From a virus: a DNA stretch of 64,000 bases. Made by a program: the position numbers and the translations under genes. Shown piece by piece: positions 8,169 to 29,412 of this stretch. How positions within the stretch are numbered: position 1 is the stretch's first letter; each line of letters opens with the position of its first letter. The stretch spans positions 186,001 through 250,000 of IMG/VR virus record IMGVR_UViG_3300024999_000030; one strand, written 5' to 3'. Below the pieces are notes generated by a model. The model saw nothing but the letters and a program-made list of their open reading frames with translations. It made no database searches and was not told the origin of the DNA.

Positions 8169-8169
8169 G

Positions 8170-9173: not shown

Positions 9174-9174
9174 A

Positions 9175-9516: not shown

Positions 9517-9527
9517 GGAGATGACAG

Positions 9528-9806: not shown

Positions 9807-9815
9807 TATTTTTTA

Positions 9816-10404: not shown

Positions 10405-10408
10405 GAAG

Positions 10409-10463
10409 TATCCAGAGCCAGTAAGTCAATGTCGCAGGGCGTTGGCTTACTGTAATGTGGGTA
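10409..10463 (+). ncRNA. Recurrent AGAGC/TAATGT structured RNA motif, copy 1
   Basis: Outer stem TATCC 10409-10413 with GGGTA 10459-10463 (one G-U), then AGAGC, then hairpin CAGTAAG 10419-10425 with CTTACTG 10446-10452, then TAATGT. The order and both conserved strings recur at 22191 and 29333. It lies six bases before the SD of the first CxxCPF gene, so it may be a cis-regulator. Confidence 0.55.
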
Positions 10464-10482
10464 TAACCGGAGGAGGTAAACG

Positions 10483-10773
10483 ATGAATGGATTCACGAAC
10501 CATTATATTTCTGCAATGCAAGACTTCATCGCTAACCCCTGTGTAAAACGATGGCGAGGGGTTGAGAGATTAAGTGATCTTAATTGTAAATGTTTACTTT
10601 TAGGGGTTTCTCAAATAGGCTCCTGTGTCGGCTGTCCATTTTATTCTTTTCATCCGAATGGCAGTGCCTGTCCTCGCTTAAATACAGCCTCCAGAAAAAA
10701 ATTAAATTTGTTTATTCCAAGGTTAGTTCTTGCTTGTTTAGAAGCTATTGCTTATTTACAGGCTAAGGAGTAA
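10483..10773 (+). CDS. CxxCPF family protein 1
   Basis: 96 residues and first of seven tandem paralogues. Shared layout: a start helix ending in FI-x-NP (here MQDFIANP), a variable stretch, a lone Cys, then C-x2-C-P-F, a last Cys, and a closing helix (LACLEAIAYLQ). Cys at 35, 37, 48, 51 and 63; CVGCPF is the core. Four conserved Cys suggest a zinc or iron-sulfur site. Function unknown. Confidence 0.75.
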   Translation: MNGFTNHYISAMQDFIANPCVKRWRGVERLSDLNCKCLLLGVSQIGSCVGCPFYSFHPNGSACPRLNTASRKKLNLFIPRLVLACLEAIAYLQAKE

Positions 10774-10775
10774 AT

Positions 10776-11156
10776 ATGGCAAATTTAAGAAGGGTTACCG
10801 ATCAAAATCGTCAGGAACAAATTAAAGCCTTTGAGGCCTTTATTGATAATCCAACTTTGGAAAATCGGAAACACCTGGCGAAAGTGATGCTTTTTGATAG
10901 TGGGCGAGATGGCAAACGAGGCTTTTGTTCGCTTTCTCGGCGAGAAGATGAAGTCTATCCTATTGTTGAGGCTTGTGAGGGGTGCCCGTTTTTTACAAGT
11001 GGTCTCAAAAGTTATTGTCCAAGAACAGAATGGATAATGGAAGAGGACTTTCCTTCGTTAACCTTAAATCGTCGTGAAGAAATACAACAAGGCCAGGTTG
11101 CTGTTTTTATTCTGGCGTGTGTCCAGGCGATTGCTCACCTTAGGATTAAAGAGTAA
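10776..11156 (+). CDS. CxxCPF family protein 2
   Basis: 126 residues. FEAFIDNP start helix, Cys at 51, 67, 70 and 81 (CEGCPFF, then YCPRTE), and a closing helix ILACVQAIAHLRI. Two bases separate it from copy 1. Confidence 0.75.
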   Translation: MANLRRVTDQNRQEQIKAFEAFIDNPTLENRKHLAKVMLFDSGRDGKRGFCSLSRREDEVYPIVEACEGCPFFTSGLKSYCPRTEWIMEEDFPSLTLNRREEIQQGQVAVFILACVQAIAHLRIKE

Positions 11157-11459
11157 ATGAAAGATATTTTGCAAAACTCTCTAAATGCTTTGCAAAATTT
11201 TATTGATAATCCTAATCCAGAAACCTTTAAACAGGTTTACGAATCTTTTGCAGTCTTTAGAGTATGTCCTCTTGCCACAAAATATGAAAATATAGATATG
11301 TATCATTGTGAAAATTGTCCATTTCCCCGTGTGTTTAATCGTACTCGACTATTACAATGCCTTAGACAATATGGATATAGCTTTGATTCATCGAAATATT
11401 TAGGCCAAATGCTTGTTGCTTGTATTGAAGCAAAGGTTCTTCTGGAGGGCAGTAAATGA
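11157..11459 (+). CDS. CxxCPF family protein 3
   Basis: 100 residues, abutting copy 2. LQNFIDNP helix; Cys at 37, 51, 54 and 68 (CENCPFP, LQCLRQ); closing VACIEAKVLLEG. The motif is complete. Confidence 0.75.
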   Translation: MKDILQNSLNALQNFIDNPNPETFKQVYESFAVFRVCPLATKYENIDMYHCENCPFPRVFNRTRLLQCLRQYGYSFDSSKYLGQMLVACIEAKVLLEGSK

Positions 11460-11809
11460 CGAGAATAGAAATACTTAAATCACAAATCAAAGCTCTTCAA
11501 TCTTTTATTAACAACCCAATTAAAAATAATTGGAATAATATTTCATTAGCTTTTACTCAGGGATCAGCAGGAGGTCAAAAATGTACTCTAGCTGGCCCCG
11601 ATAATTCATATGGAACATGTCGTTCGTGTGTTTGGGCTAAAATAGATTATACCTACCCACGAAGTAAACGGTTTCGTAAGTTGTTACTTGGACACACCAA
11701 TAGAGTAAAATACTGTGGACCAGCATATCCAGAGACCGAACAACTTCCTTCGGTTATCCTAGCCTGTATTGAATCTGTGGCTAAACTGGAGGTTCTTTTG
11801 GAGGAATAA
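11456..11809 (+). CDS. CxxCPF family protein 4, variant core
   Basis: 117 residues, overlapping copy 3 by four bases. LQSFINNP and closing LACIESVAKLEVLLE are typical. The core is CRSCVW instead of CPF, with Cys at 43, 55, 58 and 87, so spacing to the last Cys is longer. Confidence 0.7.
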   Translation: MTRIEILKSQIKALQSFINNPIKNNWNNISLAFTQGSAGGQKCTLAGPDNSYGTCRSCVWAKIDYTYPRSKRFRKLLLGHTNRVKYCGPAYPETEQLPSVILACIESVAKLEVLLEE

Positions 11810-11810
11810 G

Positions 11811-12221
11811 ATGAAAAGAGAGAACATGGTAAGTGCCCACAATCTCAAACAACAGATTAGGGCGCTGGAAAACTTTATTTTTAATCCAATTAAATCCAAC
11901 TGGGCAGTTGTACATCGAGTTTTTTCTTATGATAACTATCAAGCCCATAAAAAATCCAACATAAAAGAAAACAGAAGTTGTTGTTCAGTTGCCTTTCTTT
12001 TATCCAGAAAAACCCTAACTCAAGATCAAGATGATAATTTCGCGTGCTCTACTTGTCCATTTTTCAAATTTCAAAATATTTGTTGCCCAAGAGCCGGCAT
12101 CAATGAAGACAGATGGCTAGAAGCAAAGACTTGGGAAGCCGTTCAAGAAAATCTACCACAAATTATTAAGAATTGTATTGAGTCTCTTGGGCTTATTAAA
12201 ACAGCCGAGGAGGGTCAATGA
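11811..12221 (+). CDS. CxxCPF family protein 5
   Basis: 136 residues from ATG 11811 (GGAGG upstream). LENFIFNP; Cys at 57-58, 79, 82 and 91-92 (CSTCPFF, CCPRAG); closing NCIESLGLIK. The loop between first Cys and core is enlarged. Confidence 0.7.
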   Translation: MKRENMVSAHNLKQQIRALENFIFNPIKSNWAVVHRVFSYDNYQAHKKSNIKENRSCCSVAFLLSRKTLTQDQDDNFACSTCPFFKFQNICCPRAGINEDRWLEAKTWEAVQENLPQIIKNCIESLGLIKTAEEGQ

Positions 12222-12595
12222 GAAAAAGAATTCTTTTAGAGGAAGTGAATCATATTAATAAGGTCATTATTCTTTTAGAAAATTTTATTAATGATCCGAC
12301 AATACCTAAACTTCGGATGATTAGTGATAGTCTTAGAAACTATCCATATAGAGAAAATAAAATTTTTTCTTGTTTTATTAATGCCATCGTATTTACCGGA
12401 AATGAATATGAAAACAAAAGATGTAAACATTGCCCATGTAAGAGTGAACCGCTTATCAGTATGATAAACTGCTATGGTCAGCCTGGACTTTGTTTAGAGG
12501 ATCCAAGTGACGATATATTTTTTTGTAAAGACATTCCCGTTACCATTAAAGCCTTGTTGGAAATTATCGGACTATTAAAAACCAAACTCCCATAA
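12218..12595 (+). CDS. CxxCPF family protein 6
   Basis: 125 residues, ATGA overlap. LENFINDP; Cys at 52, 69, 72, 74 and 85 (CKHCPC). The Phe of the core is replaced by Cys. Closing helix is LLEIIGLLK. Confidence 0.7.
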   Translation: MRKRILLEEVNHINKVIILLENFINDPTIPKLRMISDSLRNYPYRENKIFSCFINAIVFTGNEYENKRCKHCPCKSEPLISMINCYGQPGLCLEDPSDDIFFCKDIPVTIKALLEIIGLLKTKLP

Positions 12596-12611
12596 TATGA
12601 AAGGAGAAGAT

Positions 12612-12947
12612 ATGTTTGAGTTAACTCAAGAATATATGGAACAGCTTGTAATTGACATGGAAACTTTCATATCTTCTCCTACAATAGCAAATTGGAAAAT
12701 CTTAACCTCCCGTATGAGGATAGCAAGTAAATGTCCATTCTCCATAGCAATAGATAATTGCTGTCCGCCTGGGTGGCCACGATCAGCCTGTAGAGCTTGT
12801 GGATTTGATGCACCATCTTCAATAGACCCATGGCTCGATGTTGAGACGGGCTGCAACTATCCGAGAGATGATAATTCTAAAGCTGAGGTTATACATTTAT
12901 TTATTCAGTTTATTGCTATGTATAAAATTTTAATTAAAGGAGATTAG
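12612..12947 (+). CDS. CxxCPF family protein 7
   Basis: 111 residues; ATG 12612 is five bases after AAGGAG. METFISSP; Cys at 41, 50-51, 60, 63 and 81 (CRACGF). Here CPF has moved to the first Cys (KCPF). End of the tandem block. Confidence 0.65.
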   Translation: MFELTQEYMEQLVIDMETFISSPTIANWKILTSRMRIASKCPFSIAIDNCCPPGWPRSACRACGFDAPSSIDPWLDVETGCNYPRDDNSKAEVIHLFIQFIAMYKILIKGD

Positions 12948-12950
12948 AAA

Positions 12951-13271
12951 ATGAGTACGAAGAAAGTCAAACAAGAAATAGAAACTTTAATACGCCTTTC
13001 AAGTTTCGGGCCTCGACCGGATACTCCCGAGGGTGAAGCGTGGGGAAGGGGCGCTCGCTGGGGTTACGAACAGGCCATGAGCAGATCCACCGATAAAAAA
13101 GCAGCCGCTAAGGATGCAGCAAAAACCATTGCTTCGATGGCCGAAGCTAGTATCAAGCAACTCTTTATGTCTAATTTTATTAGACATAACAAACGGGTGG
13201 AACTTCTCAAAGAGCTTTCTGATGCCGTTGCTACTATCGAAGAGGGTCTTGAATATATCAGGGAGGAATAA
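12951..13271 (+). CDS. Hypothetical 106-residue helical protein
   Basis: Ala/Lys-rich, largely helical, with a Gly-rich turn (WGRGARWGYEQAM). It starts after AGGAG and abuts the next gene. No family recognised. Confidence 0.6.
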   Translation: MSTKKVKQEIETLIRLSSFGPRPDTPEGEAWGRGARWGYEQAMSRSTDKKAAAKDAAKTIASMAEASIKQLFMSNFIRHNKRVELLKELSDAVATIEEGLEYIREE

Positions 13272-14060
13272 ATGAAGCGAGATTTCTACGCCGATCTTCA
13301 TGATGACATTATCGATGACGAATACGATAATTCTGAAAACATTTCTACATCTCAAGCTTCTCCCATTCGTCACCCTGAAGTAACGTCCAAATCGGGAACA
13401 AGATATATTTTTTTCCATAACCGCCGGCGCAAACATCATCTTCCGAGTTGGATGATAAAGCTTCAACATTTGGATTGGTGGGGCAAACACGACGGAGAAT
13501 ATTCTTTAGGGCGAATCCAACGAAGGCTTGATGCCCTGTTAATCTGCCCTCCTGTTAAAATTATGTCCCATTACCGTGTATTGGAAATTAATTATTTACA
13601 TGATAGGGGACTGTGGTTGGATTTTTCTAGCGCATATAGTTATGCGTTAGGAGTTTATCCCGACAACTGTTTGCATGATTCTTTTCGTTTTTCATCGTTG
13701 TTTTACTCAGGGCTTTGGGGGCCAGATCTTGAGAGTATAAGAAAAATTAAGTTAAAAGAGTTTCAAGACGCAGTTAAAGAGGCTCTTCCTGAATATGAAG
13801 AATTTTGGCCTAGCAAAATTGAAAGCTTGAAAAGAGCAATTACCTCTGCTCAAAAACAAACCGAAATTTTGCGAATTAAGAGAGAGAAGCGAATCGCCCA
13901 TCTCAAAGAGACCCATGGTAAAACTCCAAGATACTTAGATCATCAGCGCGTTCTATATGGAGTGGATGAGTTTGCTGATCCATATGAAGAAGATTCATCC
14001 AAAGAAGAAAGGGAGGAACATGATCGAGAGAATCGTGGTTTTCTCACGACGACAGATTGA
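13272..14060 (+). CDS. Hypothetical 262-residue protein
   Basis: No recognised family. An acidic N-terminus (DLHDDIIDDEYDN) is followed by a basic patch (FFHNRRRKHH), an aromatic-rich middle and a charged C-terminal helix. The 3' end overlaps the phosphatase-like gene by 41 bases in another frame. Confidence 0.65.
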   Translation: MKRDFYADLHDDIIDDEYDNSENISTSQASPIRHPEVTSKSGTRYIFFHNRRRKHHLPSWMIKLQHLDWWGKHDGEYSLGRIQRRLDALLICPPVKIMSHYRVLEINYLHDRGLWLDFSSAYSYALGVYPDNCLHDSFRFSSLFYSGLWGPDLESIRKIKLKEFQDAVKEALPEYEEFWPSKIESLKRAITSAQKQTEILRIKREKRIAHLKETHGKTPRYLDHQRVLYGVDEFADPYEEDSSKEEREEHDRENRGFLTTTD

Positions 14061-14508
14061 AGAGCTTGCTTACAAGCCCTTACTTGAATTGGAAGAAGTG
14101 CGGGTGTCCACTGGACCATATGCCATTATCAGCATTACCGGTTCAGATGATGACCTTGCTCAGCTACCCCTTAATGCGGACTTCGTTCTTCGCTTAACCT
14201 TCGATGATATTCTTGAAAATATGAACGGTAAAGAAATTGATATCATTGGTGGTGGAACACTTAAACTTAAATTCATTACGCGAGACGACGCTCTTTCGAT
14301 TACTCATTTTTTTGAAGAAATAAAAGATAAGGTTTCTTTACTCGTTGTTCATTGTGGGGCTGGTATTTCCAGAAGCGCAGGCGTCGCTATTGCCATTGCC
14401 GAACAAGTAGATATTTCAATGATGGGTCATCTTATTTCTCAACATGAGTTTTTTAATCGCGATGTCTATGCGTTAATCAAACAAACTTTCAACTCCCATA
14501 AGGAGTAA
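14020..14508 (+). CDS. Dual-specificity-phosphatase-like protein
   Basis: 162 residues from ATG 14020 (GGGAGG upstream). VVHCGAGISRSAGVAIAIA near residue 112 is the Cys-x5-Arg catalytic loop of cysteine phosphatases, with Cys as nucleophile and Arg as phosphate binder. An upstream Asp in ITGSDDDL or the F-D-D-I segment could be the general acid. It may act on phosphoprotein or RNA 5' phosphates; the substrate is not shown. Such a fold is uncommon in phages. Confidence 0.75.
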   Translation: MIERIVVFSRRQIEELAYKPLLELEEVRVSTGPYAIISITGSDDDLAQLPLNADFVLRLTFDDILENMNGKEIDIIGGGTLKLKFITRDDALSITHFFEEIKDKVSLLVVHCGAGISRSAGVAIAIAEQVDISMMGHLISQHEFFNRDVYALIKQTFNSHKE

Positions 14509-14510
14509 CG

Positions 14511-14801
14511 ATGATTAATGTAATTATAACAATCGTGTTGGTATTGGTAATATTGGCCATTTGTGTTGGGTTCTATTATTTCGGGCGGTTCGAGGGTAAG
14601 ACTCTAGCTGAAATGGATTCCCTTAATAAGGCCCGAGAAGAAAATCTCAAAGCCATGAAGTCCTATCAAGACGCCCATAAATTTTATGAAGACACTACAA
14701 TCATGATTGAAAATTGGCGTAGAGAACTGAAGATTAGATGTGAAGACAATCTCAAGGCTGTTAAGCGAATTTCTAGTTTAAGTGAGACTAGATTAGATTA
14801 G
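14511..14801 (+). CDS. Membrane-anchored coiled-coil protein
   Basis: 96 residues: a membrane span at about 4-24, then a long charged helix. Topology resembles small spanin-like or adaptor proteins, but no lysis neighbours support that. Confidence 0.6.
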   Translation: MINVIITIVLVLVILAICVGFYYFGRFEGKTLAEMDSLNKAREENLKAMKSYQDAHKFYEDTTIMIENWRRELKIRCEDNLKAVKRISSLSETRLD

Positions 14802-14823
14802 ATAACTTTGTAAATATAATGAC

Positions 14824-15057
14824 ATGAATAAAAAATGCAACGAATGTAAAGAAGAAAATAGTATTTTTAAAATATCCCTCGCATGTATAAAGTACCGTAA
14901 AAATGGATTAGGTAAACGCGGACACTGTTCTTTTTGTGAACATCTAAAGCGGTATCATAGCAAGAGAGACAAGGGAGAAAGAAATGAAAAAGAAACCGTT
15001 TCAATATCATGCCTCAATGGAAATGATGGGCGACGACACTTGCATGCGCACCACTAA
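14824..15057 (+). CDS. Cys-rich small basic protein
   Basis: 77 residues with CNECKEEN, a mid Cys, and CSFCEH, a likely zinc site. It overlaps the next frame by 74 bases, so its last 25 residues may not be real. No SD is seen. Confidence 0.4.
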   Translation: MNKKCNECKEENSIFKISLACIKYRKNGLGKRGHCSFCEHLKRYHSKRDKGERNEKETVSISCLNGNDGRRHLHAHH

Positions 15058-15151
15058 TATTGAGATGCGTATGAATCAAGATAAAAAGCGTGGTAGTAAT
15101 TCTAAAAAGAAAACCCAAACCAAGAAGCAAAATCCCAAGAGGAGTCGCTGA
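14984..15151 (+). CDS. 55-residue basic Met/Lys-rich protein
   Basis: ATG 14984 follows AAGGGAG and ends TGATG into the next gene. The C-terminus is highly basic (SKKKTQTKKQNPKRSR), suggesting nucleic-acid contact. Confidence 0.5.
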   Translation: MKKKPFQYHASMEMMGDDTCMRTTNIEMRMNQDKKRGSNSKKKTQTKKQNPKRSR

Positions 15152-15363
15152 TGCCTAAGAACGGACAAGGTACCCGAGTATTTTTATCATTTCGTAAATC
15201 TCCTCTCGGTATTATCGAAAGGGAAGAAGATAAGGATTTGAATCGCATGGATGTTTTTAATCCCGCTGCGTCAAAGAAACCAGAGACCGGTAAAGTGGTT
15301 CGTCTTAGTCGTGTGCAAGCAAGCATTCTTCGTAACCTTCATCGTATGAAAAATGGTATTTAA
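15151..15363 (+). CDS. Hypothetical 70-residue basic protein
   Basis: Coupled to the previous stop. It has RVFLSFRKSPLG and a C-terminal helix (VQASILRNLHRM). No family recognised. Confidence 0.55.
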   Translation: MPKNGQGTRVFLSFRKSPLGIIEREEDKDLNRMDVFNPAASKKPETGKVVRLSRVQASILRNLHRMKNGI

Positions 15364-15369
15364 AAAGAT

Positions 15370-15732
15370 ATGTCATACGAAGGCTATGATCAATATCTGT
15401 GTGGGAATGGTCATTATTGGATACAAGATTGTAACAACGATAATGAAGAGTGTCCGGTATGTAAAGGAAAGTTTGTGTGGAGGAACGGTGTAAATGAAAC
15501 TAATTTTGACGGATGGGGTTATATCGACATGGAAAAGTTTCTTGTCACCCCAGCTGTTAATGTTACTTGTCCTACTTGTCACCATGAAAGCGAAAACACT
15601 CCTCCCATTTATCGCGTTCCTACTCAAGATGAAGCTAATGATGCTAAGACTTGTAGGGATGAAAACGGTAATATTATTTCTTGCAGTGAGGAGTTAAAAA
15701 GATTGGAGGCAGAAAATGATCAAGTACACTGA
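15370..15732 (+). CDS. Zinc-ribbon-like phage protein
   Basis: 120 residues. YLCGNGHYWIQDC, then CPVC, then CPTC give several CxxC and Cys/His pairs of a zinc ribbon. The Asn/Asp-rich middle is seen in small phage proteins of unknown role. Confidence 0.65.
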   Translation: MSYEGYDQYLCGNGHYWIQDCNNDNEECPVCKGKFVWRNGVNETNFDGWGYIDMEKFLVTPAVNVTCPTCHHESENTPPIYRVPTQDEANDAKTCRDENGNIISCSEELKRLEAENDQVH

Positions 15733-15994
15733 TTCAAATGGTGAAACTTATGCTGTAGTCACCAATAGCAGAAAATTTGCCATTGCCCGCCTGAATGATG
15801 ACGGTAGTATTAAATATTTTTGTGCGGGTATGGATACTTTTCCAGACGGTGCAAGAATGTTTAAGCGAGGTGCGTTCTTTGTTAATTACTATCCATCACT
15901 TGACTTAGCTCAAAATGAACTGCAAACATATGTTGACTCTGAACAAGTGAAAGAGTGGGAAGTGGTTTCCGAACCGGAGATTAAAAATGATTAA
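15716..15994 (+). CDS. Hypothetical 92-residue protein
   Basis: Beta-rich N-terminal half (ETYAVVTNSRKFAIARL) and acidic C-terminus. It overlaps both neighbours by a few bases. Confidence 0.55.
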   Translation: MIKYTDSNGETYAVVTNSRKFAIARLNDDGSIKYFCAGMDTFPDGARMFKRGAFFVNYYPSLDLAQNELQTYVDSEQVKEWEVVSEPEIKND

Positions 15995-16181
15995 AGTGGT
16001 TAAGACTTTCGGAGAGGTCCCAGTGGGATGGTGGGTTGAAAGTAACGATGGTCAAGTTAAACAGGCTGATGATTTTATGATCAGTCCCTACGGTTGGCCA
16101 TCGTCGCTTCCTGTAAAACATGGCATCTGTTCTAATGTTTCAGATGAACTCAAATATCTTATCAGAAAGGATGGAGCGTGA
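15987..16181 (+). CDS. Hypothetical 64-residue protein
   Basis: KTFGEVPVGWWVESNDG suggests a small beta barrel. Ends two bases before the next start. Confidence 0.55.
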   Translation: MIKVVKTFGEVPVGWWVESNDGQVKQADDFMISPYGWPSSLPVKHGICSNVSDELKYLIRKDGA

Positions 16182-16182
16182 T

Positions 16183-16539
16183 ATGGAAAAAGTCGCGGAA
16201 GTTCTACAGTCTATTGCGGCACAGCTTGGAACAACGGTTGAAAATCTTTGGCCCTATATTGTAAGGCAACAGATCATTGAAGGCTGGAGTGGTATTATTA
16301 CTATTTCCATTCTTTATCTAATTTTCTTGGTTGTTTTCTTAGCGATCAGGAAAAAGGATGGAGGGGTTTGTGGAAATAATCCAAACGCATATGGGGTAGT
16401 AAAAATTGTCCTTGGTATTTTAACTGCAATTTTAACTCTCACTACTCTCTGTTGTATTCATGTTTTAATTTCTAAAATTATCAATCCAGAGTACGGAGCG
16501 TTAAAAGATTTAATGAACATGGTACACGGATATCGTTAA
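16183..16539 (+). CDS. Two-span membrane protein
   Basis: 118 residues from ATG 16183. A helix (VAEVLQSIAAQLG) precedes spans at about 35-55 and 75-98. The pattern, including IVRQQIIEG before the first span, occurs in small phage membrane proteins; a holin-like role is possible but unproven. Confidence 0.6.
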   Translation: MEKVAEVLQSIAAQLGTTVENLWPYIVRQQIIEGWSGIITISILYLIFLVVFLAIRKKDGGVCGNNPNAYGVVKIVLGILTAILTLTTLCCIHVLISKIINPEYGALKDLMNMVHGYR

Positions 16540-16549
16540 GGGTAAATAC

Positions 16550-16990
16550 ATGGAAACTAAACCCTTAACTCTCAGCAAAGGCTTTGCTAAAGTAAGTAAG
16601 GTCATTACGGTTGGAACGACTGGAAGAATTTTTCTAGTCAAAATGAACGAGCCATTGGGAGAAGCTAATTATGTGCTTATCCTTAACAAGTCTCGTGACC
16701 GTGAGGCTGTAAAAGATAAGATGCAAGCGGCTAGAAAAGCAAAAGGAATTGCCTGTAATAGAGGGATGAATAATCAAACTCGTAAGTCTTGGTGGGCTTG
16801 TTGGGGTTTTCCGAATAGGGAAAAAGCAAGTAAGGCTCTTCTTTTTGCTCAGAAGAATTTGTTTAAAGCTTCTGCTAAAGTTGGTAATGCTACTGTTTCC
16901 CTATTTGATGAAGTTCATCAGGACAGGGCGAAAAATTTCTTTATTGCTCATGCCAAATACCAGAAAAACTTTTCTGATAATTTGGATTAA
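16550..16990 (+). CDS. Hypothetical 146-residue protein
   Basis: Beta strands, then a basic stretch with CNRGMNNQTRKSWWACWGF, then helices. No family recognised. Confidence 0.6.
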   Translation: METKPLTLSKGFAKVSKVITVGTTGRIFLVKMNEPLGEANYVLILNKSRDREAVKDKMQAARKAKGIACNRGMNNQTRKSWWACWGFPNREKASKALLFAQKNLFKASAKVGNATVSLFDEVHQDRAKNFFIAHAKYQKNFSDNLD

Positions 16991-16993
16991 ACA

Positions 16994-17536
16994 ATGAAAA
17001 AGAAAATTTCAGAAATCAAAAATCAAATTACCAAAACTATGGGTAATATTATTAAAATAAATGGCAAGTGTCCCAACAGAGAATTATCGCGCCCAGATAC
17101 AATTGAAGAAATGGTATTTGAATTTCCACTCCTCGACGATATGGATGCTATGATTCCTAGTTCAGCCGTTCAAAATATTAAAACAATGATCACTAATTTA
17201 GATAAAGCCCAAGCCACTATAGAAATTAATAAAATTAAATTATCGGCTATGCAGGAAGTAATTAAAAATTTACCCAAAGATAATGAAATTTATTTCGATA
17301 CGGATTGGAATGATGATAACGATATTCAGCGTTGGGATTTTAATATTTCTACTTCTCATATGGAAACAGACGAAGAGTATTTAAAAAGATTAAAAGAACA
17401 TGAAGAGATGTTAAAGGATAGGGCAGCTAAAGCAGCTTTAAAAGCTAAGAGATTGGACACCGTCAGAGGACTTAAGGCTCGGGTTAAAGAAATGGAAGCT
17501 GTTATGGTGCAACACGGTTTGAATGTACCAGAATAA
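16994..17536 (+). CDS. Coiled-coil protein, paralogue A
   Basis: 180 residues. It shares its plan with the next gene: a helix ending NGKCPNRELS, an acidic FDTDWNDDNDIQRWDF region, a second helix with TDEEYLKRL, and an ending helix V-K-x-x-E/A-x-M-x-x-x-NG-L-like. Role unknown. Confidence 0.65.
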   Translation: MKKKISEIKNQITKTMGNIIKINGKCPNRELSRPDTIEEMVFEFPLLDDMDAMIPSSAVQNIKTMITNLDKAQATIEINKIKLSAMQEVIKNLPKDNEIYFDTDWNDDNDIQRWDFNISTSHMETDEEYLKRLKEHEEMLKDRAAKAALKAKRLDTVRGLKARVKEMEAVMVQHGLNVPE

Positions 17537-17547
17537 AAGGTGAAAGA

Positions 17548-18120
17548 ATGAAGAAAATTAAACTCGATAAACAAATCATTGAAATTAAAGAGGCCGAAAA
17601 TAAAATTTTAGAACTTGGGGGTAAAGTTCCTAAGCGTGGCCTTTCTAAATGGAAAAAATTAGATCAATTTAAAATCAAATGTCCCTGCTTTAACGATGGT
17701 GTTACAGGGGTTACTGAGGTCATAAAAGATTTAAAGGATCTTGTTAATTCCATAGACGAAAGTATGTCTTCTATGGAAATAGCTAAGCTTAAAGCCAACG
17801 CTCTAATGGAGACGATAAAAAGTGCCGATGAAGATTCCAGGGTTTCTGTTAAAGTTTTCTGGGACGACGATAGTGATATCAATGGTTCTAGTAATCTCCA
17901 ATGGGATGAATTTCAAATTGAAATTGCTGAACCCAAAACCAATAAAGAATATTTAGAAGCTTTAAATAAATCAATACAAACCCGTACTGAGGCCATGGAA
18001 AAACAACTTAAGAAGAAAAAGAAAAAAGAAACTCTTTCTGATGTTAAAGCTAAACTTAAAATGGCTGAGGATTTTATTAAAGCCAACGGACTTAAGTTAT
18101 CACAAGATAGGAATAATTAA
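17548..18120 (+). CDS. Coiled-coil protein, paralogue B
   Basis: 190 residues. Matches paralogue A in order: GGKVPKRGLS, VFWDDDSDI-LQWDEFQI, TNKEYLEAL, a Lys-rich helix and KANGLKL end. A tandem duplication that has diverged. Confidence 0.65.
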   Translation: MKKIKLDKQIIEIKEAENKILELGGKVPKRGLSKWKKLDQFKIKCPCFNDGVTGVTEVIKDLKDLVNSIDESMSSMEIAKLKANALMETIKSADEDSRVSVKVFWDDDSDINGSSNLQWDEFQIEIAEPKTNKEYLEALNKSIQTRTEAMEKQLKKKKKKETLSDVKAKLKMAEDFIKANGLKLSQDRNN

Positions 18121-18546
18121 TTGCTGGGAAACTTTTTTGCTTTACTAATTCTCGGCCACATGGTAGGTGATTATTTACTACAAAACAAGTGGATGGCAAT
18201 GAATAAATCAGCCAGCCATTTTAAATGTGCGGTACATTGCCTACTGTATACCTTAGCGGTGGTTTGTTTTACATGGCCAGAAATTCATGGTTTATTATGG
18301 ACCTCTATTGTATTTGTTTCTCATTACCCAATTGATAGGTGGGGCCTTGCGGACAAATGGTTGGGAATGATAAATAGCCGTAGTCTAAAAGACTTCATTG
18401 TGTTTGGTAAGTATGATATTCCGATGGAATACGACTATGAAAATTATCACGCTCTTCGTGCTGGATTTACATCTATAGTGTATGTGGCCACCGACAACAC
18501 GATGCACATTGGTTTAATGGTTCTTGGCTGGTACTTAGTGAAGTAG
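18121..18546 (+). CDS. DUF3307-like integral membrane protein
   Basis: 141 residues from a TTG directly after the previous stop. LLILGHMVGDYLLQNKWMA near the start, a His-Cys pair in span 2, SHYPIDRW and a final Trp-rich span fit the DUF3307 plan (H-x3-DYxLQ, four spans). Function of the family is unknown. Confidence 0.7.
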   Translation: MLGNFFALLILGHMVGDYLLQNKWMAMNKSASHFKCAVHCLLYTLAVVCFTWPEIHGLLWTSIVFVSHYPIDRWGLADKWLGMINSRSLKDFIVFGKYDIPMEYDYENYHALRAGFTSIVYVATDNTMHIGLMVLGWYLVK

Positions 18547-18554
18547 GAGCTGAA

Positions 18555-18734
18555 ATGAAATTTAATAAAGGACACATCTTAGAGGCTGGAGATAGACTCC
18601 ATACGATGATTATTTTATCGGAGGAGTTGCTTAGAAATCATCCAGCACTTAAAAAAGCCAAATTAAACAAACGCTTTAAGAAAGTGATTAAAAAACTTAA
18701 TAACATGTATCAAAAAGTTTGGCAATTAAAATGA
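18555..18734 (+). CDS. 59-residue basic helical protein
   Basis: Starts after TAGGAG and ends in ATGA overlap with the next gene. Leu/Lys-rich helices; no family recognised. Confidence 0.5.
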   Translation: MKFNKGHILEAGDRLHTMIILSEELLRNHPALKKAKLNKRFKKVIKKLNNMYQKVWQLK

Positions 18735-19303
18735 AATCTCAGTCACTGAAACATAAATTCACTTACGAATGGATAGCGATATTTGGTTATGTTCCAGTTA
18801 AAAAAGACTTTGTCGCATACAATAGAAATGGTATAATTTTTCAAGGTCGTGTAATTTCTCCTCGCCCCACTTATTATGGAAACATTACCGTTGACCCTGG
18901 CGTTGGTTTAACTGAGCCCTTTCACATAGTCGGCGCGGCTGAGGTAATCTCAATTTTAACTTCAGATGGTAAGCGCTTTGCAAACGAAGAAAATAAATCT
19001 TCAGAAGGAATTTTTCCTGCTGGCTGGCAAATTCCTGTTGGTTGGCGAATTATGGGACCTAAGAAACAAGGAGGAGAAACGATGTGGTCTGATTATCCGA
19101 ATTTTAACCAAAACGGTGTTGACACAAGCGTGAATGATTTTTGGATTATTTTTTGTCCCGTCTGTAACAATGTAACTCTCGCCAAAGACGAGGCGGCGGT
19201 GAAGACCAAAGCAGAAGAGCTTACTGAGAAAAGCGGAAACCCTCATGTAATTTTTCACTCGAAGGGAGTTTGTACTCCAACCCGTAATGTGGTTTGGAGC
19301 TAA
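18731..19303 (+). CDS. CPxCNN-domain protein, single-repeat form
   Basis: 190 residues, coupled to the previous stop. A beta-rich N-terminal region (FVAYNRNGIIFQGRVIS) precedes a C-terminal domain with FWIIFCPVCNNVTL, a helix, HVIFHSKGVCTPTRNVVW. The domain closely matches the end of the 5687-7366 product, and CTPTRNVVW aligns with the end of the gene at 1-556. Two Cys in CPxC plus the later Cys could bind metal. Confidence 0.7.
   Translation: MKSQSLKHKFTYEWIAIFGYVPVKKDFVAYNRNGIIFQGRVISPRPTYYGNITVDPGVGLTEPFHIVGAAEVISILTSDGKRFANEENKSSEGIFPAGWQIPVGWRIMGPKKQGGETMWSDYPNFNQNGVDTSVNDFWIIFCPVCNNVTLAKDEAAVKTKAEELTEKSGNPHVIFHSKGVCTPTRNVVWS
19068..19084 (+). promoter_or_regulatory. Internal SD and in-frame ATG
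   Basis: AAGGAGGAG ends a few bases before in-frame ATG 19082, at the start of the CPxCNN domain. It is the third paralogue with this arrangement. Confidence 0.55.
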
Positions 19304-20048
19304 TATTATCTAGGGCCTCTTTCTGAATTGTAGGCTGAATTGACGAAAGCAGTGTGGACGAGATCAAACGGCTTAAATGAGCGTTTAGTCGCACTGAAAG
19401 GTTAAGGATGCCGAAGCCCTATTACATGGCGTGTCGGAAGAGGTGTCCCAGAAAGAAGGTGACTGTGTTTTATTGTCGCAGCCCTTGACTAATGTTTATA
19501 ATACAAAGTAATTGTATAAAAGAATATAATGAACGAGTAACCTGGGACGTAGGCTCATCCCCTCCTCAGGGCGTGTTAAATTTTTAAAACTGTTGCCTGA
19601 GACATCTTAACTAATGTTGGGTGTTGTAGAAGGGCGATAGTTAATTCTTGGATTAGAAATCATGCGGCCCCCTTATGATGAATTGAAACGTTTAATACCG
19701 CGCCAATCCCATAAGATGTGGTTCGAAAAACAACGCTGCAGCGTTGTAGTGACTCTAATCTAGAAAGGAGAATAACATTGGCCGCTTATATAAACATAAT
19801 GGTCAGATGTAGAAGCTCGGATTAAATAATCCCCATAACTAAAAAATGGAGTCGAGTGCCCGGGAAGTTGAACTGATATCCTTACAGGCTTTTAAAAATT
19901 AAGTCCACTATCCTGTGTTTAAAAATAAACCCAGGATCTGATGGTCAGATGTAAGATGTTATCAGTTTGCCCCGGGGCAAGGTTAATGCAGCCGGATGAT
20001 AATCCGCCAGTCCCAAGCCTGGAAATGCAGAGGGGAATAGGAAATGTT
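19304..20048 (+). ncRNA. 745-base structured non-coding region
   Basis: No convincing gene. Paired segments include CAGTGTG 19350-19356 with CGCACTG 19390-19396 enclosing AAACG/CGTTT, and GATTAGA 19651-19657 with TCTAATC 19754-19760. There is an 18-bp palindrome at 19730-19747 and a 14-bp palindrome at 19967-19980. A 13-base direct repeat (ATGGTCAGATGTA) occurs at 19799 and 19941. AAAGGAG 19764-19770 precedes a TTG that would make a 15-residue peptide (19778-19825). One or more RNAs are likely; no known family could be named. Confidence 0.5.
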
Positions 20049-20975: not shown

Positions 20976-20985
20976 TGGAGGAAGT

Positions 20986-21895: not shown

Positions 21896-21904
21896 GGAGA
21901 CAAT

Positions 21905-22177: not shown

Positions 22178-22190
22178 GGCTATCACTGTG

Positions 22191-22241
22191 TAGTTCTTAG
22201 AGCTAGCAGGCTAGAAACGGCCTGCTATAATGTGAGAACTA
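22191..22241 (+). ncRNA. Recurrent AGAGC/TAATGT structured RNA motif, copy 2
   Basis: Outer stem TAGTTCT 22191-22197 with AGAACTA 22235-22241; AGAGC; perfect hairpin AGCAGGC 22205-22211 with GCCTGCT 22220-22226; ATAATGTG. The SD AGGAGG begins at 22243, directly after the outer stem, so folding could affect ribosome access. Confidence 0.65.
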
Positions 22242-22253
22242 TAGGAGGTGCTC

Positions 22254-22535
22254 ATGATAGAGCGATACGGTATCAATGAAAATGATTGGATGCTACAGAG
22301 ACAAGACGACGGGCATTTAGTTTCTTATAATGATTGGTTAAGGGTTCGCACACTTTTAAAGAATCTTGAAGTTGCAGCCAACGAGTACTACCATATGGCT
22401 GATATCTCCGTGTCCGTTAATAATGCAGACCCTGAATGTGTTTATGAAAATAATTTACTGGCTGCAAGAAATGAGGCCAGGGGTTTCATAAAGGAGACTA
22501 AAGATGCCGATGAGCAAAAAGGTATTTCGACTTAA
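22254..22535 (+). CDS. Hypothetical 93-residue protein
   Basis: Start at 22254, five bases after AGGAGG. Mostly helical. It lies directly downstream of the structured RNA at 22191. Confidence 0.6.
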   Translation: MIERYGINENDWMLQRQDDGHLVSYNDWLRVRTLLKNLEVAANEYYHMADISVSVNNADPECVYENNLLAARNEARGFIKETKDADEQKGIST

Positions 22536-22725
22536 AACTCTTGCAACTAAACTTCAAATGGAAGTCGATCCACTTATTGATAGTACTGAAAAACTTCTCA
22601 AGACTCTGAAGTTTATAGGTGTTGAATCTTTTGGTGACAGCACCCTTATTTATAATTATGCACAAACCAAAGAGGCCCTACGACAAATCAAAAATAAAAA
22701 ACAAGAACTTAAAGGCCTTATGTAA
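22504..22725 (+). CDS. Hypothetical 73-residue helical protein
   Basis: AAAGGAG within the previous gene precedes ATG 22504; the two overlap by 32 bases in different frames. Leu/Lys-rich helices. Confidence 0.55.
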   Translation: MPMSKKVFRLKTLATKLQMEVDPLIDSTEKLLKTLKFIGVESFGDSTLIYNYAQTKEALRQIKNKKQELKGLM

Positions 22726-22727
22726 AG

Positions 22728-23060
22728 ATGCAACCATTTATTGCAGCACTTCAATCTTTTATCAATGAACCAAATTTAACCTCATGGTTAGATATGGTTG
22801 AAGTTTGGAGACATGAATCCTTACAAAGTAAAAACAAGGATTGCCCGATAAAATTTGAAATCGTCGGGATGAACACATTGATGTGTGGCGATTGTCCATT
22901 TTTAAATGCACATCCATGCCCATGGATAGTCAGTAATTTAGATTCCCCAAAAGGTAAAGAGCATTTTAAAGAAATACAAAGTATTCTTTTAGTCGATAGT
23001 ATTATTTTATTATCTAAATTACAAGCAATGGAAAATATAAATGTCAAAAAGAGAGACTGA
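22728..23060 (+). CDS. CxxCPF family protein 9
   Basis: 110 residues. LQSFINEP, Cys at 39, 53, 56 and 64 (CGDCPF, PCPW), closing IILLSKLQAME. First of a second cluster. Confidence 0.75.
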   Translation: MQPFIAALQSFINEPNLTSWLDMVEVWRHESLQSKNKDCPIKFEIVGMNTLMCGDCPFLNAHPCPWIVSNLDSPKGKEHFKEIQSILLVDSIILLSKLQAMENINVKKRD

Positions 23061-23403
23061 TGCTAAAGTTATTCTTGTTAATTTTGTGAATCACCCAACA
23101 CCTGAAACTTGGGAAGAAGTACACAAATATTGGGAAATTCAAAATGCATGTCCATTTAATATAATGTATGAAGGCAGATGTGGTTGTTGTCCTTTTACAA
23201 GATTTGGAAAAAATCTTCATTTATCGATGCATGATTCAGCATTTGAACATCTTTGTCCATTTTATAAAAATACTCATTTAGATTTGAGTTCTAGGCTTGT
23301 TGCTAGTATTCAAGCCGTTGCTTATATAGAAACATATGAAAACTTAGAGATAGAGCAACTGGTTCCCCTGTGGACAAGGGAAATCAACAAGGGTGGAGGA
23401 TAA
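23041..23403 (+). CDS. CxxCPF family protein 10
   Basis: 120 residues, overlapping copy 9 by 20 bases. LVNFVNHP; Cys at 37, 47, 49, 50 and 72 (CGCCPF, LCPF); closing SIQAVAYIETYE. Confidence 0.75.
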   Translation: MSKRETDAKVILVNFVNHPTPETWEEVHKYWEIQNACPFNIMYEGRCGCCPFTRFGKNLHLSMHDSAFEHLCPFYKNTHLDLSSRLVASIQAVAYIETYENLEIEQLVPLWTREINKGGG

Positions 23404-23410
23404 AAATAAA

Positions 23411-23605
23411 ATGAGAAAAAATAAATTTTTCAAAAACTTTATTGCGTCTCTCAAAGAAGCAATAACAATGAATATCAATCGTAAAGATCCCCCACCTAAA
23501 ACCACATATAGAACTTTAAATGATGGTAGTGTCCTTAGAACTATCACATATTATAGTTCCGATGGTCAAGTTGTGAGAACGGAAACTGACCACTTGCCAA
23601 AGTAA
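23411..23605 (+). CDS. Hypothetical 64-residue basic protein
   Basis: GGAGG lies 12 bases upstream. An in-frame GTG at 23393 is another possible start. The C-terminal part has short strands (SVLRTITYYSSDGQVVRTE), a small beta sheet. Confidence 0.5.
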   Translation: MRKNKFFKNFIASLKEAITMNINRKDPPPKTTYRTLNDGSVLRTITYYSSDGQVVRTETDHLPK

Positions 23606-23929
23606 TGTTATATCAAAAAACAATTAATGCTTTAAGGTTATTTACAGAACAACCTAACCCCCATAATTGGAAAAATATTTCATTAGCATTAATTGATGAA
23701 TCTAATGAACTACTACAACAATGTTTATTGGGCTCTCCTGGACCAACCAAGGGATCTCCAGCCCATTGTTGTGATTGTCCATTTTGGCAAATATAAACAA
23801 ACTAATACATTTTGCCCTAGGTTTATATACAGAAGGCCTTCTATCGAAAGATTTGGAGAGGCAGTTTCCGTTGTTATGGCCATTCAAGCTATTGCTAGAT
23901 TAGAAATGTTAGCTGAAGAACATGAGTGA
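23605..23929 (+). pseudogene. CxxCPF family protein 11, frame-shifted
   Basis: The first frame has LRLFTEQP and HCCDCPF, then stops; the next frame carries NTFCPRF and the closing VVMAIQAIARLEMLAEE. Removing one T from TTTT 23782-23785 restores a full 107-residue member (CPFGKYKQ). Confidence 0.6.
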
Positions 23930-24474: not shown

Positions 24475-24488
24475 CTAAGGAGATAGAA

Positions 24489-24968: not shown

Positions 24969-24991
24969 TTTAAAAAACTTTGGAGGTTCAT

Positions 24992-26386: not shown

Positions 26387-26412
26387 ACTATGGAGTCTCT
26401 TAGGAGAAAACA

Positions 26413-26625
26413 ATGAAAAAGAAAAAGCCCAATTGGTTTAGGATTGCTACTAAGATTAACTCCATTATTATAGAAGATATAGTATCTAGAATACAAACCG
26501 TAGATAATCTTGGACACATTACAGAAGAGGCTACGGCGATTCAAAATGAATTGATGAAGATTAGAAAGCGCTGTATCCAACTTAATCTTCTTCAAAACGC
26601 CCTTCCAGATAAAAGTGAAACATGA
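26413..26625 (+). CDS. Hypothetical 70-residue helical protein
   Basis: AGGAG precedes the start. Basic N-terminus and helices; ends in ATGA overlap with the acetyltransferase gene. Confidence 0.6.
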   Translation: MKKKKPNWFRIATKINSIIIEDIVSRIQTVDNLGHITEEATAIQNELMKIRKRCIQLNLLQNALPDKSET

Positions 26626-27029
26626 AGTTTGAAAATATTAAAACTTCAGTTGATATTTATATGATCGCTAAGGAAGCCTTGCGCAATCGTCTCTATATTG
26701 ACAATGAGAGCGCATTTTGGGTTTGGTTACACAACCCATGTGATATTAAAAAAATAACTACCTGCCGAGATGATGGTAAGTTAATTGGCGTGGCCGTTAT
26801 GATGAAGCACCCGGACATTCGTTTTGCTAATGGGGTTAACATTGGTGTGTATGTTAAATATACATACCGTTGTCGTGGTATAGGTTCAAAATTAATTAAA
26901 ATGTTGCCCAATGGTAAAAGCAACAAGCGATTATTTTGGGGAACAGGAATTAAAGATTCTGATAAGTTTTTCAAAAGTCTCCCTAAAAGTCGTAAAACAT
27001 TTAATCTTATACGTGCGGATGGTGAATGA
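26622..27029 (+). CDS. GNAT-family acetyltransferase
   Basis: 135 residues. GVYVKYTYRCRGIGSKLIKM near residue 73 is motif A of the fold, with R-x-x-G-I-G holding the acyl-CoA pyrophosphate. VAVMMKHP forms the preceding strand. The enzyme probably transfers acetyl from acetyl-CoA to an amine; the substrate is unknown. Confidence 0.75.
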   Translation: MKFENIKTSVDIYMIAKEALRNRLYIDNESAFWVWLHNPCDIKKITTCRDDGKLIGVAVMMKHPDIRFANGVNIGVYVKYTYRCRGIGSKLIKMLPNGKSNKRLFWGTGIKDSDKFFKSLPKSRKTFNLIRADGE

Positions 27030-27196
27030 TGATTAATGATGATTCTCCTCTATATAGCGGTAAGAGTTTACTAATGAAAGAAATAGCGATGGAGCGTGGT
27101 ATTAGATATATAGATGTTCCAGTTTCCCCTGCTCCAGCCTCAAAAGACTTTCTTGGATTATTAATGGGAGATGTTCATGCCTTCCTTAAGATGTGA
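27026..27196 (+). CDS. 56-residue protein of unknown type
   Basis: ATGA overlap with the previous stop. YSGKSLLMKEIAMERG and YIDVPVSPA loosely recall the start of a P-loop ATPase, but too little remains to support that. It overlaps the next gene by 20 bases. Confidence 0.45.
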   Translation: MMINDDSPLYSGKSLLMKEIAMERGIRYIDVPVSPAPASKDFLGLLMGDVHAFLKM

Positions 27197-27434
27197 AAAA
27201 TGTCAATATCGAATTGAATTTGAGGGAGAAATAGTTATTCACTCCCGACGGGCTGATGGTTCTTGTTATCATTATTATATCTGTTCTGAGTGTTTTGATA
27301 TTAGAGCATATAAGGATATTAAGAACTGCCCTAAGTGCTTCGTTTGGCACGATGATAATGATCACTGCCCAAAGTGTGGAGTGGGGCCAGTAAATGTAAA
27401 TAGAATTATTCATGAATTTGGGAGAGTAACATGA
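27177..27434 (+). CDS. Zinc-ribbon protein
   Basis: 85 residues from ATG 27177, chosen by GGGAG spacing. CEKC, then CSEC, CPKC and CPKC form a double zinc ribbon. A nucleic-acid or protein contact role is inferred. Confidence 0.65.
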   Translation: MPSLRCEKCQYRIEFEGEIVIHSRRADGSCYHYYICSECFDIRAYKDIKNCPKCFVWHDDNDHCPKCGVGPVNVNRIIHEFGRVT

Positions 27435-27787
27435 TTCCACATAGGGAGTGGATAAATTCTATGGAAAATTTTATCCGCGATCCTAGTTTTGAAAACATGT
27501 TGATGGTAAGAAAAATTAGAGACGATTACGGTTGCTCCAGCTACTCTCGTGATGGACAGCAGGGAAGGGGACCGCTTTGGCCTAGAGATGGTAGAAGCAT
27601 ATCCAGTTTATGTAAGGAGTGTCCATTCCAAACACATGTGGGCGCGGTTGGAGGATGGTGTTTATTACAAGAGTTAAGAGATAAAAAACATTTTATTACT
27701 TACTCTGGTTTATTAATTGAGCGATCAAAAAAAGCTGTAAATGATTTACGTGGAATGTGGTCAGATTCCCGAGGAAATCAATTCTGA
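27431..27787 (+). CDS. CxxCPF family protein 15
   Basis: 118 residues, ATGA overlap. MENFIRDP; Cys at 35, 61, 64 and 77 (CKECPF, WCLL); a 25-residue insert separates the first Cys from the core. Confidence 0.7.
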   Translation: MIPHREWINSMENFIRDPSFENMLMVRKIRDDYGCSSYSRDGQQGRGPLWPRDGRSISSLCKECPFQTHVGAVGGWCLLQELRDKKHFITYSGLLIERSKKAVNDLRGMWSDSRGNQF

Positions 27788-27835
27788 TTTTACTTGGGAA
27801 ATTAAACCTGATTCTCGATAGAGAAGGAGAAGGTT

Positions 27836-28039
27836 ATGAAAGAGTATAATGGTAAGTTTGCCAATGAGGTTTGTAATATCAAGCGAAACGAAGCTGAAGA
27901 ACGCCAGAGGTTATCTGATCTCCGTAGTCCTCAGGATAGGCTTCAACGACTTGATACTAGATTTGGGGTAGGTCTGGGAGCTATTAAGGAACGCGCTCGT
28001 TTAAATGGCCTGTTGGAACAAAATAAAGTAAACGCGTAA
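27836..28039 (+). CDS. Hypothetical 67-residue charged protein
   Basis: Strong AAGGAGAAGG SD. Arg/Glu-rich helices (ERQRLSDLRSPQDRLQRL). No family recognised. Confidence 0.6.
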   Translation: MKEYNGKFANEVCNIKRNEAEERQRLSDLRSPQDRLQRLDTRFGVGLGAIKERARLNGLLEQNKVNA

Positions 28040-28291
28040 TTCAAACGAAAAGGAGGCCACTACTAAGTCTTGGTGGATTTAACAGGCACGCTTCGCCCGA
28101 AAGCTCGTTGAATAACCAGAGGTGAATCTGGGATGTTCCCGTAACGACTACTGATACAGGCTAAGAGTGAAAAGGGTTGTGTCCTGAGTAGTTTCTTAGC
28201 ACTGACCAAACCAATAGTAGACGGGCCACTATAATGTGTTGTGGCTATAATTTGTGGCTATCTAACATTAATCTACAATAGGAGAATAAAA
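28040..28291 (+). ncRNA. Structured intergenic region with interleaved helices
   Basis: 252 bases without a gene. ACTACT 28147-28152 pairs with AGTAGT 28187-28192, and GCTAAGA 28160-28166 with TCTTAGC 28194-28200; the helices interleave, so they are a pseudoknot or alternatives. GCCAC/GTGGC forms a later hairpin around a TATAATGTG string. SD AGGAG precedes the next gene. Confidence 0.45.
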
Positions 28292-28684
28292 ATGGATTGG
28301 ATCGTAAATCTTATCACCGAATGGAAGTGGAATGGATTTATGTCACTTTTACTTTATTGGCTCCCGCTTTCGTTCTGTGTAGTCGGTTATACTTTACGTA
28401 CCGCCCGAAATTATATTAGAGATAAAAGAAGACTCGCGGAATATTTAAGCAGCAGGGGCAATAAGGTTGCTAAATCTAAAGAAATTATTTATCCAAGACA
28501 AGAATATTATCCTACCGACACCATAGGAACCCTTATTGGTAGATCGATTGTTTCCATTGTTCCTATCGGAAATCTTTGGGCTGCATTGTTTGACCTTGCC
28601 CCCGAAGTCTTTCGTAAGTTTTTTAAGTGGCTCGGCAAAGTATTTGATTTTCCGCTTGTGCCTGGACCGAAAGAAGATGCCTAA
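28292..28684 (+). CDS. Phage membrane protein
   Basis: 130 residues from ATG 28292. WIVNLITEWKWNGFMSLLLYW leads into a span at about 15-35, and TDTIGTLIGRSIVSIVPIGN with AALFDLAPEVF forms a second membrane-associated stretch. This layout is common in small phage membrane proteins; role unknown. Confidence 0.65.
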   Translation: MDWIVNLITEWKWNGFMSLLLYWLPLSFCVVGYTLRTARNYIRDKRRLAEYLSSRGNKVAKSKEIIYPRQEYYPTDTIGTLIGRSIVSIVPIGNLWAALFDLAPEVFRKFFKWLGKVFDFPLVPGPKEDA

Positions 28685-28928
28685 AGTAGACATTGACGCT
28701 CTAGAAAAACTTTACAATGAATCTACTCCGGGGCCATGGATAGTTAGGGATATGAAATTTGTTCATGCCCCATGCCCCTGTTGTGGAGATGTTGCTGAGT
28801 GCGTGCAGTATGGCCCAGGAAATGATAAGGAAAACTACAATACAGAAATTATCGTGGCGATGCACACAGCCCTACCGCACCTCATTACTGAACTAAGAGC
28901 CGCAAGAAGAAAGAATAGGAAAAAGTAA
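28677..28928 (+). CDS. Ead/Ea22-like protein
   Basis: 83 residues, overlapping the previous gene by eight bases. ALEKLYNESTPGPW at the start, a Cys-rich CPCCGD centre, and IVAMHTALPHLITELRAAR at the end match the Ead/Ea22 pattern of small phage proteins. Function unknown. Confidence 0.6.
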   Translation: MPKVDIDALEKLYNESTPGPWIVRDMKFVHAPCPCCGDVAECVQYGPGNDKENYNTEIIVAMHTALPHLITELRAARRKNRKK

Positions 28929-29120
28929 ATGGAAAATAAATACAAACAAGTGTTGGAGACTTATAGATGCTTATTGAGTTGCAGAAAAAATCTTCCAGGA
29001 CTTAGCCTAGAAAGCGCATTTAATGAAGATGCCGTTAGGGATTTGGAAGAAGAATATGCTTGGCTGCAACAACAAAAACAATATGAAAGCCATACCGGGA
29101 TTAATTGTCCTCCTCCATAA
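28929..29120 (+). CDS. Hypothetical 63-residue protein
   Basis: Abuts the previous stop. Helical, acidic, ending NCPPP. No family recognised. Confidence 0.55.
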   Translation: MENKYKQVLETYRCLLSCRKNLPGLSLESAFNEDAVRDLEEEYAWLQQQKQYESHTGINCPPP

Positions 29121-29332
29121 TTTAAAAGTGGACCTCGCCAGTGTGTAAGTAGGCACTCCCAGAATCATTTACAAGGGGGAGACACCGACGGCTGGAAGGT
29201 AGTATAATATTTATACTATCATCTGGTGAGATGCCCCATTGGAGGCCTAGCTTCGTCAAATCTCCATCGCGGTAAGGTGGAAATGATGGGCGGACTAGAA
29301 GCCCTCTGTCGCCACCGCTCTAGTGAAGATTG
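29121..29332 (+). ncRNA. Structured non-coding region
   Basis: No gene. GGTAGTATAA near 29196 pairs with TTATACTATC as a 10-bp hairpin with a TAT loop. TGTAA 29144/TTACA 29169 and CTCCC 29156/GGGAG 29177 interleave weakly. The stretch is continuous with the motif at 29333. Confidence 0.4.
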
Positions 29333-29381
29333 TTCCTAGAGCCGGCTCGTCGATGTAAGTCGGCGAGTCGTAATGTAGGAA
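29333..29381 (+). ncRNA. Recurrent AGAGC/TAATGT structured RNA motif, copy 3
   Basis: Outer stem TTCCTA 29333-29338 with TAGGAA 29376-29381; AGAGCC spanning the stem end; hairpin CTCGTCG 29346-29352 with CGGCGAG 29361-29367 (one G-U); TAATG. It matches copies 1 and 2 in order and conserved strings but not in stem sequence. The next start is 32 bases on. Confidence 0.6.
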
Positions 29382-29412
29382 TAAATCTAACTTAACTTAT
29401 ATCGGAGATAAC

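Follow-up and report, generated by a model that had tools for sequence, protein, structure and literature searches.

A covarying intercistronic hairpin in seven copies in a giant phage genome: a probable RNase III-type processing signal with its own loop sequence

We analysed a stretch of 64,000 nucleotides (nt), hereafter the window, which is positions 186,001 to 250,000 of the 332,730-base virus record IMGVR_UViG_3300024999_000030 from IMG/VR. A short RNA hairpin motif recurs in it, ahead of small genes. A sequence-only reading of the window had described three copies, with AGAGC and TAATGT on either side of a hairpin and an outer stem around them. All three were found (copies 1 to 3 below), but the record as a whole holds seven, at 169.94, 170.86, 177.99, 196.40, 208.19, 215.33 and 217.40 kilobases (kb), and two of these have a variant core. 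All seven are on the plus strand, the one that is transcribed. They lie in intergenic gaps among small genes, usually directly ahead of a Shine-Dalgarno (SD) sequence, and the stretch that holds them spans 47 kb. The copies within the window are as follows (window positions).

10408-10464, plus strand: copy 1; outer stem 10408-10414/10458-10464, GAGC 10415-10418, inner hairpin 10419-10452, UAAUG 10453-10457
22189-22243, plus strand: copy 2; outer stem 22189-22199/22233-22243, GAGC 22200-22203, hairpin 22204-22227, UAAUG 22228-22232
29330-29384, plus strand: copy 3; outer stem 29330-29338/29376-29384, GAGC 29339-29342, hairpin 29343-29370, UAAUG 29371-29375
31398-31456, plus strand: variant copy GACU/AAGUG; outer stem 31398-31406/31448-31456, loop 31407-31410 and 31443-31447, hairpin 31411-31442

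Each copy is a single long hairpin broken by an asymmetric internal loop of 4 nt and 5 nt (4/5 loop), which is GAGC/UAAUG in the exact cores. The order of the elements in copy 2, for example, is TGTAGTTCTTA-gagc-[TAGCAGGC...GCCTGCTA]-taatg-TGAGAACTATA. The AGAGC/TAATGT core that had been proposed is kept in five copies, including those at 169.9 and 178.0 kb, but its first A pairs with its last T, so that the unpaired core is GAGC/UAAUG. The two altered copies have GAGA/CACUG (170.86 kb) and GACU/AAGUG (window 31398-31456). Inside the loop, A2 is able to pair with U4' (primes denote the 5-nt side), leaving a G-G mismatch between positions 1 and 5' and a GC/UAA loop. All seven copies share the closing A-U pair, G1, A2, A2', U4' and G5'. 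Outer helices have 7 to 11 base pairs (bp) and inner helices 9 to 19 bp, with some G-U pairs, as RNA permits. A constant loop between two free helices, with no Rfam match, could also be expected of a small self-cleaving ribozyme with AGAGC/UAAUGU as its active site. However, the altered cores keep the structure and the location, which a ribozyme core would hardly tolerate, and a two-helix rod with one loop is smaller than the small ribozymes known to us. We consider a ribozyme highly improbable.

The stems had been said to differ in sequence and yet to keep pairing, and the full set bears this out. Copies 1 to 3 each fold alone into the described form, with minimum free energy z-scores of -5.6 to -7.5, and RNAfold gives the described core to all five exact-core copies (z-scores -5.6 to -9.7). 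Among these five, 97% of cells are paired and 13 of 20 pairs show compensatory change, a value that none of 500 shuffles equalled. Over all seven copies 97.8% of paired cells hold standard pairs and 13 of 20 pairs have changed on both sides, which again 0 of 500 shuffles reached. Covariance models built from five copies and from all seven each gave exactly seven members in the whole record. The seven-copy model matched them with E-values of 1e-13 to 1e-19 and 58 to 76 bits on the plus strand, and its best minus-strand score was 19 bits. Since the seven copies are its training set, these E-values measure fit; what counts as independent evidence is the recovery of the other two by the model built from five copies.

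The architecture also separates the motif from chance. A structure-only scan for an inner stem, a 4/5 loop with the 2-4' pair and an outer stem put all seven copies at the top in 124 kb of the phage record. In a wider scan of the same length, which accepted any pair of stacked helices around an internal loop of 1-7 by 1-8 nt, six structures with a 4/5 loop and the 2-4' pair scored 42 or more, and all six were the motif. The 31398 copy scored 49.6 but was drawn as 3/4, since one loop pair can form. Twelve Markov resamples gave about one such high score each, none with a 4/5 loop, and just 0.4% of all chance two-helix structures had such a loop. The motif is a genuine cis-acting, covarying, multi-copy structured RNA in the 5' gaps of genes. 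A role at the DNA level, as a cruciform or a replication or recombination site, might be suggested by its palindromic form and by the word CAGTATC, which is enriched nearby and used by the copies at 169.9, 170.9 and 178.0 kb. Against this, 7 of 7 copies are intercistronic and in transcript orientation, the stems contain G-U pairs, and the model scores are those of one strand; such a role seems to us extremely doubtful.

The copies had been placed just upstream of genes, with copy 2 touching its SD sequence. The open reading frames (ORFs) that follow the copies in the window are listed here, with lengths in amino acids (aa).

10483-10773, plus strand: ORF 3' of copy 1; 96 aa, small cysteine-containing protein, no Pfam match
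22254-22535, plus strand: ORF 3' of copy 2; 93 aa, no Pfam match
29413-29589, plus strand: ORF 3' of copy 3; 58 aa, read from the sequence
31469-31804, plus strand: ORF 3' of the variant copy; 111 aa

Copy 1 begins 4 nt past the end of the upstream ORF (10404) and stops 4 nt ahead of the SD GGAGGAGG. Copy 2 begins 12 nt past the upstream stop (ORF end 22177), and the SD AGGAGG abuts its stem, with the ATG at 22254. The 31398 copy shares sequence with the stop codon of ORF 31029-31400 and adjoins the SD AGGAGG of ORF 31469, and the 177.99-kb copy begins 6 nt past the upstream ORF. The other copies are in longer gaps; copy 3 lies 210 nt past the upstream ORF end, with the ORF at 29413 starting 28 nt downstream. 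Placement right after stops and before SDs fits a unit between cistrons of one transcript, not a promoter leader. In the genome stretches read, nearly all long ORFs are on the plus strand, save a minus-strand block before about 168.4 kb. The motif region starts directly past this divergent gene switch near 168 kb and has many ORFs of 60 to 150 aa; from the gene size and the switch it looks like an early, host-takeover region.

Two other readings of these positions were weighed. A covarying structure ahead of genes could be a riboswitch or another leader that senses a ligand. However, the copies showed neither an alternative fold nor a terminator nor SD sequestration, the downstream genes are unrelated small ORFs, and several copies lie inside an operon directly after a stop codon, so we regard such a leader as far-fetched. 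The earlier suggestion of a new cis-regulatory RNA stands for a cis-acting, covarying element but finds no support for a riboswitch-like regulator, and the architecture is that of the T7 RNase III signals described below. Alternatively, a phage or host RNA-binding protein might bind the copies and control translation or mRNA stability without cutting. An internal loop within a helix is a typical protein site, and copies adjoin SD sequences, but the spacing between stem and SD is not fixed, ranging from 0 nt to some 20 nt or more, and processing signals have exactly this 4/5 architecture. We consider this unlikely.

Two further observations concern the surroundings of the copies. The 210 nt before copy 3 (window 29121-29329) have no ORF of at least 60 aa and contain an AT-rich hairpin; this segment folds no better than its shuffles (z -1.1) and matches no Rfam family. 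A hairpin unit, ATATAGTGGTGTG...CACATATAGACAGAAAGATGGGTTTTGAGAAAAA, occurs twice past the 169.9-kb copy (positions 4000-4250 of record stretch 166001-186000).

An identical 4/5 scan was run on phage T7 (NC_001604). The top four sites were at 36816, 18502, 13854 and 1428; those at 857 and 5854 ranked lower, and all six carry ACUC/UAUGA-type loops. We take the sites at 36816, 18502, 13854, 1428 and 857 to be R18.5, R6.5, R4.7, R0.5 and R0.3, in that order. The T7 loops are ACUC/UAUGA, CCUC/CAUGA, ACUC/UAUGG and ACUC/UACGA. The site at 5854 is R1.1 (PMC6121014, PMC8708148), which comes from the T7 early region and has an asymmetric 4-nt/5-nt internal loop (PMC6121014). R1.1 receives a single cut, at nt 5887, while full complementarity, in a variant, leads to cuts in both strands, and RNase III needs a helix of at least 12 bp (PMC8708148). 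In the T7 sequence this position, nt 5887, is nucleotide 3 of the 5-nt loop, UAU^GA, of which the counterpart here is UAA^UG.

Like the T7 signals, the present copies are long, irregular intercistronic hairpins on the sense strand, with an asymmetric 4/5 loop whose 4 nt are on the 5' side, in what is presumably an early region. Their outer helices (7 to 11 bp) and inner helices (9 to 19 bp) together reach the roughly 12 bp that the enzyme needs. Both phages have several copies per genome with a constant loop. In all T7, SPO1 and present loops compared, position 2' is A and nucleotide 2 is paired with 4'. At 1/5', like purines are mismatched in most T7 sites (A-A) as well as in SPO1 and here (G-G). 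In contrast, T7 combines the loop ACUC/UAUGA with a constant adjoining AAGG/CCUU, whereas GAGC/UAAUG is here joined to freely changing stems.

In SPO1 the two-helix scan gave three sites in the gaps that separate early genes 59, 58, 57 and 56; these are hairpins with GCUA/NAUGG loops, in detail GCUA/(A,C,U)AUGG. SPO1 is a relative of SP82, in whose early mRNA Panganiban and Whiteley reportedly described Bacillus subtilis RNase III sites in 1983, and the SPO1 early hairpins would be the same sites as those of SP82. SPO1 and the present phage share the 4/5 architecture, the G-G mismatch at 1/5', A at 2' and one hairpin per intercistronic gap. They differ in the loop, in the constant GGUU/AGCC outer pairs of SPO1 and in the 2-4' pair, which is C-G there and A-U here. 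The predicted core fold is identical in R1.1, two SPO1 sites and the five exact-core copies. A covariance model built from five T7 and three SPO1 sites found these eight training sites and three untrained ones: T7 R6.5, T7 R1 and, between SPO1 genes 60 and 59, a fourth site of that phage. The same model gave a weak match at window 31143-31192 (22.9 bits, E 0.004), ACTCAAGG...CCCTTAATGA, inside ORF 31029-31400; its outer stem is poor and the match is probably due to chance.

The structure, the covariation, the strand, the location, the number of copies and a loop architecture equal to that of T7 and SPO1 are observations. By analogy with these phages, each copy is probably an mRNA processing signal at which host RNase III cuts a long polycistronic transcript, probably an early one, between its genes. 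Together, the two stems would provide the double helix required by RNase III, and the asymmetric 4-nt/5-nt loop would restrict the enzyme to a single nick in the 3' strand. As in T7 R1.1, this nick would follow nucleotide 3 of the 5-nt loop side (UAA^UG). The predicted cuts, which rest on this analogy, are given below.

10455^10456, plus strand: predicted cut in copy 1
22230^22231, plus strand: predicted cut in copy 2
29373^29374, plus strand: predicted cut in copy 3
31445^31446, plus strand: predicted cut in the variant copy

After the nick, the upstream mRNA would retain a protective 3' hairpin, and each downstream mRNA would be freed, its gene gaining a new 5' end ahead of its SD. We infer cleavage, the enzyme, the cut site, the timing and the effect on expression or translation. 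A Pfam search of the phage genome found no RNase III catalytic or double-stranded RNA-binding domain (PF00035, PF00636), so the enzyme acting would be that of the host. When GTDB genomes were searched with the capsid protein for a host, the sole match (29%, in a Ferruginibacter metagenome-assembled genome) was uninformative. If the proposal is true, the 4/5-loop design also serves, with another loop sequence, to cut the presumed early mRNA of a giant phage that is no close relative of T7 or SPO1. The 4/5 loop would then be a general single-nick code for bacterial RNase III, reached repeatedly by phages, and architecture could reveal processing sites in uncultivated phages that sequence and Rfam searches miss. 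A comparison of the three natural loops would then also put the role of the loop sequence to the test.

No known class with these strings had come to mind in the sequence-only reading, and a comparison with Rfam 15 agreed: no family matched the motif at the gathering threshold, and permissive searches gave nothing beyond chance. Since Rfam matches none of the T7 processing signals either, this blank is no proof of novelty, and the earlier idea of a new regulatory class can be accepted only in part. When 2.9 million viral contigs were scanned for the pattern, with three choices of flank, well-paired copies appeared only in the near-identical contig IMGVR_UViG_3300025015_000017; the rest fit chance. 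Over 73% of its length, the capsid protein of the present phage shares 54% identity with the Bacillus phage G protein. A model search of 50 contigs sharing the capsid gene, together with phage G, Rctr197k and Tunturi_5, found no copy, many of the contigs being fragments that may miss the region; one match at E 0.01 was in an unrelated 171-kb record. The 4/5 scan on parts of two relatives (340 and 316 kb) gave no recurrent loop. Four further copies thus came to light in the same record, two of them through the covariance-model search that had been suggested as a check, but none in the phages searched except the near-identical contig, and the loop variant appears confined to this phage lineage.

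Several results weigh against processing by RNase III. The T7/SPO1 model matches 0 of the 7 copies, and neither motif model finds any T7 or SPO1 site; with these searches negative and the sequences different, the likeness is claimed as architectural only, not as common descent or sequence homology. The core is invariant in five copies although RNase III needs little loop sequence, and the 50 contigs with a related capsid gene lack the motif though RNase III is nearly universal in bacterial hosts. A processing site for some other loop-specific endoribonuclease, phage-encoded or host, would explain a constant, lineage-restricted 11-nt core, which is fixed in five copies while the stems change and is absent from the 50 capsid relatives, phage G, Rctr197k and Tunturi_5. 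The analysis yielded no candidate nuclease, however, and the RNase III-type sites of T7 and SPO1 likewise keep their own loop constant within one phage; such a nuclease seems rather improbable. Taken more widely, the GAGC/UAAUG core might be read by a dedicated lineage-specific factor, either a non-RNase III endoribonuclease or a regulator, as an undescribed phage RNA-processing code that arose separately from that of T7 and SPO1, a possibility to which we give a fairly low probability. Most likely, the copies are an RNase III-type signal with a loop sequence new relative to T7 and SPO1.

Some other features of the phage genome were noted. CAGTATC or its complement occurs 43 times in the 20 kb just upstream of the window (record 166001-186000), against about 2.6 expected. 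It occurs mostly as CCAGTATC, on both strands, within and between genes, is dense at 168.4-171 kb beside the divergent switch, and is also found at window 62, 1873 and 1908. These repeats are possibly a protein-binding site or an origin feature. Several small CxxCPF proteins, partly in tandem and often with a similar N-terminal stretch, are encoded at window 10483-12221, 22713-23796, 44153-44665 and 49298-49690, and the over-represented 9-mer TGTCCATTT encodes part of what they share.

One protein that combines an NMT1/phosphonate-type substrate-binding domain with an OmpA domain and another that matches a PHROG labelled ABC transporter are encoded at window 35547-37079 and 38781-39647. The record contains at least 16 tRNA genes (record 1-20000 and 179.8-180.5 kb). 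One tRNA with anticodon CUA, called tRNA-Pyl (record 14708-14783), is a possible amber suppressor; the late genes read open in the standard code. Inteins interrupt a ribonucleotide reductase and a gyrase-B-like protein; poly(A) polymerase and topoisomerase I domains occur together in one ORF, and an RtcB RNA ligase is encoded.

L081:1585-4647 and 14297-17443; L082:16738-20000; L077:14037-15230 (stretches of the phage record): intein genes, poly(A) polymerase/topoisomerase I ORF, RtcB

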